A DNA stretch of 64,000 nucleotides from Gordonia sp. (in: high G+C Gram-positive bacteria) (GTDB taxonomy: Bacteria; Actinomycetota; Actinomycetes; Mycobacteriales; Mycobacteriaceae). The stretch covers positions 23,802-87,801 of the forward strand of contig NZ_JAGQTN010000089.1 in the NCBI RefSeq assembly GCF_020438995.1, given 5' to 3'. Below are positions 45,190 to 48,886 of this stretch, piece by piece (the stretch's first letter is position 1; the number at the start of each line of letters is the position of its first letter). A model generated the notes under the pieces. It ran no database searches, was not told the DNA's origin, and saw only the letters and a list, made by a program, of their open reading frames with translations. The position numbers were made by a program, and so were the translations under genes.

Positions 45190-45208
45190 GTCGCTACCTC
45201 CATCACGT

Positions 45209-45258
45209 TATAACAGTTGTTATACTTCATCGAACGCTACGCTATGACAGTCGTTATG
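45209..45258. promoter_or_regulatory. Paired TetR-type operators in a divergent promoter
   Basis: TATAACA-GT-TGTTATA (45209-45224) is a perfect palindrome with 7-bp arms. TATGACAGTCGTTATG (45243-45258) matches it at 13 of 16 positions, 34 bp further on. They lie 20 bp from the thioesterase start and 22 bp from the TetR start, so one regulator probably controls both promoters. Confidence 0.7.
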
Positions 45259-45280
45259 AGCAAGATGGAAGGGGTTGGAC

Positions 45281-45862
45281 GTGGCCACACGCACACCACG
45301 CGAGCAACTGATCAGCGGTGCCGCCGACCTGTTCGCGCGCCGCGGGCTCCGCGCCACCAGCGTGCGTGAGGTGGCCAAGTACTCCGGCGCACCGCTGGGT
45401 TCGACGTACCACTACTTTCCCGGCGGCAAGTCCGAGCTCGCGGTCGCGGCCGTCGAGCACGCCAACACGTTCATCTGCCGGGCGTTGCGCCGCGAACTGA
45501 CCGCCGGGGGTCCCGTCGACGGGATGCGGGAGTTCCTGGTGATGTGGCGAAAGATCATTGTCGACAGCGATTATCGCGCGGGATGCCCGGTGCTGGCGGT
45601 CGCGGTCGAGGAACCCGACGACGACGATGCTCCCCTGCTCGCCGCGGCCGCCGCGTTCGGCGATTGGACCGCAATCCTGGCAGACTCGTTGCGAGAGCAC
45701 GGCGCGGACGAGGTCATCGCGCGGCAGACGGCGACGCTTGTAGTCGCGTCGATCGAGGGAACGGTGGCGATCTGCCGGGCCGAGCGCAGCACGACGGCGC
45801 TCGATGACATCGACGCGATACTCACCCCACTGTTGCGCCGGACGATTGGTATGTCTGACTGA
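45281..45862 (+). CDS. TetR-family repressor
   Basis: A 193-residue regulator with the HTH in LISGAADLFARRGLRATSVR, then EVAKYSGAPLGSTYHYFPGGK, and a C-terminal domain of the YfiR/LmrA-like type (GCPVLAVAVEE). GTG 45281 follows AAGGGG at 45269-45274; a TTG two codons earlier is less likely. It is divergent from the thioesterase-like gene, its probable target together with itself. Confidence 0.88.
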   Translation: MATRTPREQLISGAADLFARRGLRATSVREVAKYSGAPLGSTYHYFPGGKSELAVAAVEHANTFICRALRRELTAGGPVDGMREFLVMWRKIIVDSDYRAGCPVLAVAVEEPDDDDAPLLAAAAAFGDWTAILADSLREHGADEVIARQTATLVVASIEGTVAICRAERSTTALDDIDAILTPLLRRTIGMSD

Positions 45863-45894
45863 TCACGCACTTCTGACTCGGATGCGGCGGCCGG

Positions 45895-46067
45895 AACCGG
45901 ACAGACGAGCCCGGCCGGGGTGTCCAGTCGCAGGGTGGTGATCGGTTCGGTGACGGGCACCATGCCTGTCTCCACCAGGACGGTCGCGGTGCCGCCGCCG
46001 GCGATGACTCGGGTCGCATGCCCTCGGTGTGTGAGTCGACGGCGTGGTGGACGTGCGATGTCCTCAT
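45895..46067 (-). pseudogene. Broken proline racemase / 4-hydroxyproline epimerase gene
   Basis: ATG 46067 overlaps the dehydrogenase stop and starts MRTSHVHHAVDSHTEGM, the family N-terminus. A 1-nt deletion in the next codon shifts the frame. Restoring it gives PTRVIAGG, which joins directly to TATVLVETGMVPVTEPITTL and RLDTPAGLV, a segment that normally lies about 80-100 residues later. The rest is missing. So the gene has a frameshift, a large internal deletion and a lost C-terminus, and the catalytic cysteines are gone. Hydroxyproline epimerase fits the context best. Confidence 0.7.
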
Positions 46068-47524
46068 CGGAGTGTGTCCGGGTCGTGCACGCCGTTCACG
46101 CGGCGCGGCGCAGGTACCGACTGGTCGTCGCGCAGTTCGCCCGGTAACAGTTGCTGCGGGAATCCCTGCCATGCCACTGCCCGCACGAAACGGCTCAATG
46201 CGGCGGTTCCGACCGAGGTGGTGCCGGGTGTGGTGCTGGCCGGGTACGGGCCGCCGTGCTGCTGGGCGTAGGTCGCCGACACCCCGGTCGGCCACTGGTT
46301 CCACAGGATGCGACCGGCTTTGCGGGTGAGGATGGTGGTCAGCGGTCCGACGATGGCGTCGTCGGGTTCGGCGACGAGGGTTGCGGTGAGCTGACCGTGC
46401 AGCCTGCGGGCGATCCGGAGCAGGTCGCTGGTATCGGCATAGGTCACCACAAGCGCTGTGGGACCGAAACATTCGACGACGAGATCGTCGAAGCCGGTGA
46501 TCAGCGTGGCACTGTCGGTGGCTAGCAACGTAGGTGCCGGTGGGTCCGTCTCCGGTCCGCCTCCGGTGAGCAACCGCACCCCCGGGTGGCCGGTGAGCCC
46601 GTCGCGCACCTTGCTGTGTCCCCGGGCTATTCCCGCGTTGAGCAGTGCATGTCCGGGCGGCAGCGCGGCATCGCGCAGCAAGTCCGGGATCGCCGAATCG
46701 GCGGGTACCAGAAGGATTCCGGGTTTGGTGCAGAACTGCCCCTGCCCGAGCGTGAACGACCCGAGGAAGCCGTCGACGATCTCCTGTGCCCGGGCGGAGG
46801 CCGCGGACTCGGTGACGAACACCGGATTGACGCTGCCGAGTTCACCGTAGAACGGGATCGGTTCGGGACGTGCCTGTGCGATGTCGAAAAGTGCTCGGCC
46901 GCCGGGTATTCCGCCGGTGAATGCGGCGGCCTTGAGGTCGGGGTGGGCGAGCACGGCGCGGCCGTCGGCTTCGGAGTGGATTGTCGAGAACAGGCCCGCC
47001 GGTGCGCCGGCGGTGTCGAGTGCGTCGTTCACGACGGTGGCGGTGGCGTCCGACAGTGCGGGGTGGCCGTGGTGGGCCTTGTAGATCACCGGGCAGCCGG
47101 CCGCGAGTGCCGAGGCGGTGTCGCCGCCGGCGGTGCTGAACGCGAATGGGAAGTTGGACGCACCGAAGACGAGGACCGGGCCCACGGGGACCGACGTGCG
47201 GCGCAGATCCGGCCGCGGAGCGCCCATCGGCCACTGTGGGTCGGCGTGATCGATACGAACGTCAAGGTGCTCGCCCGCCGCGGCGGCGTCGGCGAGAAGC
47301 CGGATCTGGAATGTGGTGCGGGTCAGTTCACCGGTCAGCCGTGGCCGTGGCAGATGTGATTCGTCCTGCGCGATCGGGATCAGGTGGTCGGCGGCCGCGT
47401 CGAGCGCATCGGCGACCGCGTGCAGGATCTGCCGACGCTCGCCTGATTCTGTTGCCGCCCAACGTTCTCCGGCGATGGTGGTGGCGGCGACCAGGTCGTC
47501 GATGGATCGCTCCGGTGCGGTCAT
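46064..47524 (-). CDS. Alpha-ketoglutarate semialdehyde dehydrogenase-type aldehyde dehydrogenase
   Basis: A 486-residue enzyme oxidising 2,5-dioxopentanoate to 2-oxoglutarate with NAD(P). It has VPVGPVLVFGASNFPFAFST, then GGDTASALAAGCPVIYKAHH. The catalytic glutamate is in IPFYGELGSVNPVFV and the catalytic cysteine in LGQGQFCTKPGILLV. These are the marks of the KGSADH branch used in hydroxyproline, arabinose and glucarate breakdown. GAGGAGC precedes the ATG. Both flanking genes on the same strand are broken, so this looks like the last intact member of a decayed operon. Confidence 0.88.
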   Translation of the reverse strand: MTAPERSIDDLVAATTIAGERWAATESGERRQILHAVADALDAAADHLIPIAQDESHLPRPRLTGELTRTTFQIRLLADAAAAGEHLDVRIDHADPQWPMGAPRPDLRRTSVPVGPVLVFGASNFPFAFSTAGGDTASALAAGCPVIYKAHHGHPALSDATATVVNDALDTAGAPAGLFSTIHSEADGRAVLAHPDLKAAAFTGGIPGGRALFDIAQARPEPIPFYGELGSVNPVFVTESAASARAQEIVDGFLGSFTLGQGQFCTKPGILLVPADSAIPDLLRDAALPPGHALLNAGIARGHSKVRDGLTGHPGVRLLTGGGPETDPPAPTLLATDSATLITGFDDLVVECFGPTALVVTYADTSDLLRIARRLHGQLTATLVAEPDDAIVGPLTTILTRKAGRILWNQWPTGVSATYAQQHGGPYPASTTPGTTSVGTAALSRFVRAVAWQGFPQQLLPGELRDDQSVPAPRRVNGVHDPDTLR

Positions 47525-47562
47525 GTCTGCTCCTCGTCTTGATCGGTGGTCGGGTCCTGTGC

Positions 47563-47757
47563 TCAGTTGTACCCGGCCGCAACGGCGTTGTGGGTGGCCT
47601 TGGTGACCTGTGCCGCGATCTTCGGTGACAGCGGCGAACGCTGCGGGCGGCAGCGACCGCCCTTGCAGCCGACTATGTCCATCGACAGTCTGATGGCCTG
47701 CACGAATTCGGTCGTGGAGTCCTGGCGCAGCAGCGGGTGTAAATCCCTGTACAGGGA
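47563..47757 (-). pseudogene. C-terminal remnant of a dihydrodipicolinate-synthase-family gene
   Basis: About 65 codons read LYRDLHPLLRQDSTTEFVQA, IRLSMDIVGCKGGRCRPQ, then RSPLSPKIAAQV and KATHNAVAAGYN. This matches the last two helices of DHDPS-family aldolases, where a GxRPP-type motif is normal. No start or TIM-barrel body exists upstream; the sequence runs instead into the promoter region of the recombinase. The family includes pyrroline-4-hydroxy-2-carboxylate deaminase, which acts directly before KGSADH, and KDG dehydratase. Confidence 0.65.
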
Positions 47758-47848
47758 GTGCGGCGGCCGTGTCCGCGGTTTGTCGTAGCGGGTGGCTACC
47801 CTCATGCGTCATGACCGAACCCTCTGCGCCAAGGCCGGGCTGTGAACC

Positions 47849-48886
47849 ATGTCCGAACCGTGTGACATGACCGAACCGCGCCGGGTGCCCTCGACCGAAC
47901 GCCGGGACACCGACCGGCCCGAGTGGTTCGAGGAGTTCATGCAGTCGCGGACACGGATGGGCCGCTCCCCGCACACTCTGCGTGCGCTCCGGCAGGACTT
48001 CGATTCCATCGCGACCGCGATCCTCGGCGGTTCCGAGGACCTGTCGGTACTCGAAATCCGGCAGGTGACCAAGCGTTCCATTCAGCGCGCGTTCAGCGAC
48101 TATGCTGACACTCACCGCTCCAACAGCTACCTGCGGTGCTGGTCGACGTGGAATCAGTTGTGCGACTGGCTGATCGACAACGACTACCTGAATCGGATCA
48201 ACCCGATGCGGACCGTCGAGCGGCGCAGGCCCGAACGTCACCACCCCAAGTCGTTGACCGCCGAGGAGATCGGGAAACTGATCGACGCCGCGTGGCAGGA
48301 GAACAATCCGCCCCGTAGCTGGCCCGAACTCGAGCACGCCGTCGTGGCAGTCGGAGTACTCACTGGGGTGCGTGAGGCCGAACTGATCAGCCTGAACATC
48401 AACAGCATCCGGCACACCGAGCAGGGGCCGGTGCTGCATGTGCGCGGTAAAGGGAGCAAGGACCGTTCCATCCCGTTCGAGCCCGAACTGCTCACGATCA
48501 TCGAGACGTATCTGCATTCGCGGACGCAGGTGTTCAGGACCCGTTCGTCCGCCCGGCGTGACGCGATCGACCGGTTCCCTCCGGATGATCCGTTGTTCGT
48601 AGGTGCCGACGGCGAACGGATCACCGTCGGCACCCTGCAGGCGCGGATCGGACGGCTGTTCAAACGTGCGGCGGTCCCGACCAAACCCGGCGCGTTGCTG
48701 CATTCATTGCGGCACACCTACGCCACCGTGCTCGCAGATACCGGAATCAATCCGTATCAGCTGCGCACTCTCCTCGGACACGAATCCGCCGAGACCTCGC
48801 AACGCTACATCGCGGCGGCCGGGCAGGAGAATCGGGGCGCGGCCGCCCGCAATCCGCTATATGCCCAGCTGGACAGACCGGTGTGA
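47849..48886 (+). CDS. Tyrosine recombinase / integrase
   Basis: A 345-residue site-specific recombinase. The N-terminal core-binding domain has FEEFMQSRTRMGRSPHTLRA. The catalytic domain holds the full residue set: Arg in LTGVREAELISL, Lys in RGKGSKDRSIPF, HSLRHTYATVLADTG (His-x-x-Arg), LLGHES and the Tyr in TSQRYIAAAG. ATG 47849 or ATG 47867 may be the start. It stands alone between a truncated gene and kynU, with its stop 1 nt from the kynU stop, and has no excisionase or relaxase partner. Confidence 0.9.
   Translation: MSEPCDMTEPRRVPSTERRDTDRPEWFEEFMQSRTRMGRSPHTLRALRQDFDSIATAILGGSEDLSVLEIRQVTKRSIQRAFSDYADTHRSNSYLRCWSTWNQLCDWLIDNDYLNRINPMRTVERRRPERHHPKSLTAEEIGKLIDAAWQENNPPRSWPELEHAVVAVGVLTGVREAELISLNINSIRHTEQGPVLHVRGKGSKDRSIPFEPELLTIIETYLHSRTQVFRTRSSARRDAIDRFPPDDPLFVGADGERITVGTLQARIGRLFKRAAVPTKPGALLHSLRHTYATVLADTGINPYQLRTLLGHESAETSQRYIAAAGQENRGAAARNPLYAQLDRPV

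Follow-up and report, generated by a model that had tools for sequence, protein, structure and literature searches.

The genes SCO6289-6293 of Streptomyces coelicolor, described together with HypR, code for an LhpB/F/E-type dehydrogenase, a DHDPS-family deaminase, an epimerase and a GntR-like regulator (PMC6608401), families also found in the hydroxyproline (Hyp) island discussed below. The Cys-Cys dyad of proline racemase-type enzymes is described in PMC4113996, together with a 4HypE whose dyad is Ser-Cys; function is therefore not fixed by the dyad alone. The last enzyme of the pathway, KGSADH, converts alpha-ketoglutaric semialdehyde (alpha-KGSA) to alpha-ketoglutarate. A working trans-4-hydroxy-L-proline pathway needs four enzymes: the epimerase, the dehydrogenase, the deaminase and KGSADH. 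Here we describe a Gordonia locus in which epimerase and deaminase are fragmentary and KGSADH is intact. It lies in a 64,000-nucleotide stretch of contig NZ_JAGQTN010000089.1, hereafter the window. Literature searches returned no paper on hydroxyproline in Gordonia amarae and, among the titles listed for KGSADH, pseudogene and hydroxyproline, none on this locus.

Results

The features of the locus are collected in Table 1. The initial annotation had recognized an intact minus-strand gene of KGSADH type, with its stop codon sharing an ATGA overlap with the start of a racemase-family remnant, and both observations hold. The sequence GAGGAG precedes the ATG of this gene and is a candidate ribosome-binding sequence. 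Besides the Aldedh domain, the predicted protein has Cys265, Glu228 and Asn124, which we take to be the catalytic residues.

Table 1. Positions of genes, remnants and deletion junctions in the window
Feature	Position	Strand	Basis or content
TetR gene, left border common with G. amarae	45275..45862	+	profile match and locus comparison
12.6-kb deletion junction	45898..45905		gone: the second gene of the racemase family, Rieske/ferredoxin, MFS, OYE, regulators, LhpE/F/B-like subunits and the 3' end of the epimerase gene
4-hydroxyproline epimerase-type (proline racemase family) remnant	45904..46067	-	piece 1, residues 1-17 of the G. amarae protein, at 46017-46067; piece 2, residues 97-126, at 45904-45993
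KGSADH gene, intact	46064..47524	-	uninterrupted 486-codon ORF, 486 aa; Aldedh E 8.9e-35
OCD-gene scar, 1,023 bp missing relative to G. amarae	47534..47561	-	block alignment
DHDPS-family deaminase remnant	47563..47788	-	in-frame end of the gene (63 codons, 47566-47754) and about 34 bp with small indels
837-bp deletion junction	47788..47791	-	gone: DHDPS 5' part, upstream region, two HypR-type operator-like sequences
XerC-like tyrosine recombinase, right border common with G. amarae	47849..48886	+	94% aa identity

The key to the locus is a member of the same genus, Gordonia amarae NBRC 15530 (to which we assign genome G033), which carries a full hydroxyproline island of about 16 kb (contig C65, about 101.1-117.6 kb). 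The flanks are common to both genomes: the TetR gene on one side and, on the other, upstream of the deaminase remnant, the tyrosine recombinase on the opposite strand followed by a kynureninase gene. On the minus strand of G. amarae the order is DHDPS, ornithine-cyclodeaminase (OCD) family, KGSADH, epimerase, DAO (an FAD oxidoreductase), a small Fer2_4 protein, a protein of the pyridine-nucleotide-oxidoreductase family that may by analogy be called LhpE-like, and a regulator of GntR type. Further genes beyond these encode an HTH/FCD protein, an oxidoreductase of the OYE family, an MFS transporter, a Rieske protein fused to ferredoxin and a second protein of the racemase family. The core order DHDPS-OCD-KGSADH-epimerase-DAO recurs in a more distant Gordonia (G004), and its presence in both species identifies the state of the window as derived; neither recombinase nor kynureninase was matched in the 36 kb examined around the G004 island. 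We also considered whether G. amarae had gained the OCD gene by insertion and rejected this, as G004 carries the gene too. Since an intact operon occupies the same locus in a relative, in the same order and between the same flanks, the fragments in the window qualify as remnants of a Hyp operon, and their collinearity with the island excludes chance resemblance.

The G. amarae locus has some further features. The GbcA-like Rieske protein fused to ferredoxin, the OYE-family oxidoreductase and the MFS transporter (L134:9000-15001 and L032:1-4032; C65 about 101-110 kb) all score under the NCBIfam cut-offs; they could form a hydroxyproline-betaine branch, and among the papers listed for hydroxyproline-betaine none dealt with such a demethylase, by titles and abstract openings. 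The second proline-racemase-family protein (L134:9141-10130) has the motifs ACGHGT and DRSPCGSGT, and its best NCBIfam match is trans-3-hydroxyproline dehydratase, far under the cut-off (294.9 of 540). A 382-aa ORF of G. amarae (C65:99140-100288), in the interval between the thioesterase and TetR genes, has no match in the window (window 45191-45207).

The epimerase remnant was correctly assigned to its family, as alignment to the G. amarae protein confirms. It retains 47 codons, in two pieces 82% and 97% identical to the G. amarae sequence, with a 1-nt frameshift and a missing stretch of 213 bp between them. The frameshift and the loss of the 3' part had been noted correctly; the internal deletion, put at roughly 80 residues, amounts to 71 codons. 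As located in G. amarae, the first catalytic Cys lies in the segment taken by the 213-bp gap and the second in the 3' part taken by the 12.6-kb gap. The remnant passes the Pfam cut-off for Pro_racemase (28 bits against 27, E 1.5e-6, profile positions 89-119), and the frame of its first piece gave one unrelated weak match only (Pfam, E<=1). The orthologue in G. amarae scores 432.8 bits with Pro_racemase and shows a Cys-Cys dyad in the motifs MCGHGT and DRSPCGTGT. The curated 4-hydroxyproline epimerase model PRK13971 is its best match, at 352.4 bits, under the cut-off of 376; by the models, 4-hydroxyproline is a putative substrate.

The deaminase remnant, undetected by Pfam and NCBIfam at E<=1, was identified through the comparison with G. 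amarae: its 63 residues are 79% identical to the DHDPS-family protein (tblastn E 5e-28). The family had thus been named rightly; the 65 codons first reported are 63 in frame, adjoined on the side towards 47788 by about 34 bp of further DHDPS sequence broken by small indels.

The blocks in which the window aligns with G. amarae (45207-45898, 45905-45994, 45995-47534, 47561-47788, 47791-47822 and 47861 onward) define what is missing. Taken as the G. amarae stretches between the first five blocks, the loss comes to 14,691 bp in four gaps (12,618, 213, 1,023 and 837 bp), in addition to the frameshift. The proposed loss of a pathway is therefore borne out, on a larger scale than was envisioned: it concerned an island of about 16 kb, including the OCD gene formerly in the interval between DHDPS and KGSADH. 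The GntR gene is absent from the window locus, its best matches elsewhere in the genome being 27-34% identical. One part of the start region of the G. amarae recombinase gene (117639-117656) aligns with two places in the window, 47791-47822 and 47861-47878, so that the deletion junction carries a short duplication.

The G. amarae region lost in the 837-bp gap contains TGCAATGTCAC exactly, the core of the HypR motif described for S. coelicolor (PMC6608401), and the same core once more with one mismatch. The exact TGC(A/C)ATGTCAC core lies near the 5' end of the DHDPS gene, inside its longest ORF and ahead of the ATG that, from a ribosome-binding-like sequence, is the likely start. In the G. amarae stretch L040 the core is matched twice, with 0.93 expected and 24 of 100 shuffles reaching 2. 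This count alone is non-significant, so the case for an operator-like site rests on exactness and position. In the window, two one-mismatch matches compare with a chance expectation of 2.59 and carry no meaning. A sigma-70 consensus scan of positions 46000-48000, which may suit this organism poorly, found no promoter-like site.

Could the missing functions be supplied from elsewhere in the genome, or could the deletions be artefacts of a draft assembly in 325 contigs, with the pathway in fact intact? The fragmentation of the genome invites the second idea, which we find scarcely credible. The four separate gaps lie on one contig, the genome is 98.6% complete, and misassembly would leave the substitutions in the deaminase tail unexplained. 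The sole racemase-family match is the remnant itself. The OCD query returned nothing from the genome (an empty search run without a positive control), and DAO yielded only weak matches, 25-28% identical over most of the length or short pieces at 41-43%. Queries with DAO, OCD and the LhpE-like protein had no match in the window, and no close copies of racemase, DAO, DHDPS or OCD were found elsewhere in the genome. Apart from the remnant, the only DHDPS-family gene, and the only one above the cut-off, is dapA (236.1 bits, cut-off 206.15), which stands beside RNase J and thyX.

The same search bears on the source of alpha-KGSA. To reach this compound, the glucarate and arabinose routes depend on a dehydratase of the DHDPS family, and the xylose route of bacteria depends on a xylonate dehydratase of ILVD/EDD type. 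The genome holds one ILVD/EDD gene and three MR_MLE matches; two of these are strong and exceed the cut-off for o-succinylbenzoate synthase, and the third is weak. With dapA as the sole DHDPS gene, and given the gene needs of the known routes, the 98.6% complete draft yielded no further known source of alpha-KGSA among the DHDPS, ILVD/EDD and MR_MLE families. The suggestion in the initial annotation that KGSADH is kept for another sugar-acid route thus finds no support. It seems to us quite unlikely that the enzyme serves an alpha-KGSA route outside the Hyp, glucarate/galactarate, arabinose and xylose pathways, or a new aldehyde; if it did, a selected orphan of this kind would be a pointer to an undescribed Gordonia pathway.

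The identity of the enzyme was approached through its relatives. The closest KGSADH among 61 genomes searched (its own and 60 relatives) is that of G. amarae, at 85% amino-acid identity. The curated NCBIfam equivalog for KGSADH, AlphKGSA_gudD, gives the window protein 51.2 bits, far short of the cut-off of 770; as the G. amarae enzyme from the intact Hyp cluster reaches merely 46.8 bits, this model probably represents a different type of KGSADH. A tree was built from 81 KGSADHs, taken from the window, from G004 and from 79 of 80 named loci (the length/stop filter removed L110). In it the window protein groups with those of G. amarae and G004 at support 100/100. It also falls in a seven-row clade (100/99) comprising five Hyp-linked rows, Kribbella L044 and the window, which places it among the Hyp-cluster KGSADHs.

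In the fetched stretches, an epimerase match occurs near KGSADH in 44 of the 80 named loci, G. amarae included, and a DHDPS match in 41; L059, in which the epimerase match is merely 42% identical, is counted among the 44, yet labelled non-Hyp in the tree. A full-length racemase-family match was found in four of 59 genomes of the genus (G033, G004, G025 and G003), which makes the trait patchy; a fifth genome above the cut-off, G021, has a short match only. Another reduced arrangement is seen in Kribbella catacumbae (L044, 8783-12334), where KGSADH, DHDPS and GntR relatives stand together with no epimerase or DAO match in the fetched 21 kb.

One might suppose that the gene is kept as a broad-range aldehyde dehydrogenase, for detoxification or aromatic/acyl metabolism, and not for alpha-KGSA. 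The only two distinct PDB sequences that match the window protein at E<=1e-20, 3v4c (named NADP+) and 1eyy/1ez0, are both aldehyde dehydrogenases, a likeness that is a sequence relation only. Moreover, at four sampled KGSADH loci without an epimerase match (relatives 56-58% identical), eight of nine scanned neighbour proteins were a TPP enzyme, CoA transferase, AMP-binding enzyme, acyl-CoA dehydrogenase, FMN dehydrogenase or transporters, varied metabolic and transport families; the ninth had no match. However, the nesting of the window protein among Hyp-cluster enzymes argues against this supposition, as does the lack of any acceleration hinting at a changed substrate. We regard it as possible, though doubtful, and it may overlap with the explanation that we prefer.

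That KGSADH is dying, the other fate initially proposed for it, is contradicted by its pattern of substitution. Pairwise omega against G. amarae is 0.068 (dN 0.081, dS 1.19), far from neutrality and like that of six neighbour genes (0.025-0.073). (The XerC-like recombinase, which stands at the island border in both species, has omega 0.025 against its G. amarae counterpart.) With G004 as third taxon, omega on the window branch is 0.067 or 0.082 depending on the model; a value of 1 is rejected (2 delta lnL 7.3 and 9.1). With omega fixed at 1 on that branch, however, the outgroup branch became absurdly long. The distance to G004 is large (dS about 2 or more), and the KGSADH dS between G. amarae and G004 is saturated. 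For these reasons we place weight on a mixture model, in which the window branch is allowed to end in a neutral phase, and on plain counts.

In the mixture model, the neutral fraction of the window branch is best put at 0 for KGSADH (95% upper bound about 0.03), at 0.13 for the DHDPS tail (95% about 0.05-0.27) and at 0 for the epimerase fragments (46 codons used; upper bound about 0.055). An equal fraction for tail and KGSADH is rejected (2 delta lnL 12.8), and a single fraction across all three genes less strongly (6.0). Letting tail and epimerase share one fraction is worse than separate fractions by 7.4, which suggests a stepwise loss, with the deaminase going before the epimerase. The counts run parallel. 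KGSADH has 23 amino-acid changes found only in the window and 25 found only in G. amarae; the tail has 9 and 2 (relative-rate p 0.065; tail against KGSADH, Fisher's test p 0.027) and the epimerase fragments 2 and 1. Three of 124 near-invariant KGSADH columns deviate in the window, as in G. amarae. Residues unseen in 78 relatives number 13 of 448 in the window KGSADH (16 in G. amarae, 12 in G004), and those unseen in 33 orthologs 9 of 63 in the window tail (3 in each of the others).

With the tail neutral for about 13% of the branch and KGSADH for at most about 3%, the constraint on KGSADH seems to have outlasted the death of the deaminase. The evidence against a dying KGSADH is good as concerns KGSADH itself and moderate as concerns the deaminase tail, whose relaxation is read from 63 codons. 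The drift of the tail, 0.13 x 0.65, amounts to about 0.09 synonymous changes per site, so that the label "recently lost" holds loosely; the lack of relaxation in the epimerase codons suggests that the latest deletions may be recent. Could KGSADH then be a mere last survivor, in an operon lost too recently for drift to mark it? The epimerase fragments, free of detectable relaxation, fit such a scenario, and so does our failure to find a promoter-like site or a substrate source; but the deaminase tail did drift and KGSADH did not, as the rejection of an equal fraction indicates, and we hold the scenario to be unlikely.

Discussion

The explanation that we favor, and consider fairly probable, is a piecemeal loss of the island in which the deaminase died before the epimerase, with KGSADH remaining under purifying selection and probably working on alpha-KGSA, or on an aldehyde like it, that is supplied from elsewhere. 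In this view the Gordonia of the window descends from an ancestor with a hydroxyproline island of about 16 kb like that of G. amarae, and the island was removed stepwise in its lineage. The DHDPS-type deaminase would have been dead before the epimerase. The reductase, dehydrogenase subunits, transporter, regulator and deaminase upstream region are now absent from the locus. KGSADH would be expressed from a new or read-through promoter. The constraint retained by the gene suggests that it now has another job.

Catabolic operons often decay, and it is the constrained orphan that is mildly surprising here. With the intact version preserved at this position in a sister species, the order and timing of loss become readable. 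One enzyme was apparently selected after the decay of the gene that fed it, which calls for caution in inferring a pathway from a single conserved gene.

The locus can be set against known systems. The G. amarae NBRC 15530 island has the same location, flanks and order around KGSADH and is intact, whereas the window holds one gene and fragments of two. Compared with the L-hydroxyproline cluster of Pseudomonas aeruginosa, PA1252-1269 (PMC5144071), the window is without intact genes for the other three enzymes. In S. coelicolor the KGSADH gene lies away from the operon (PMC6608401), whereas the window keeps KGSADH alone.
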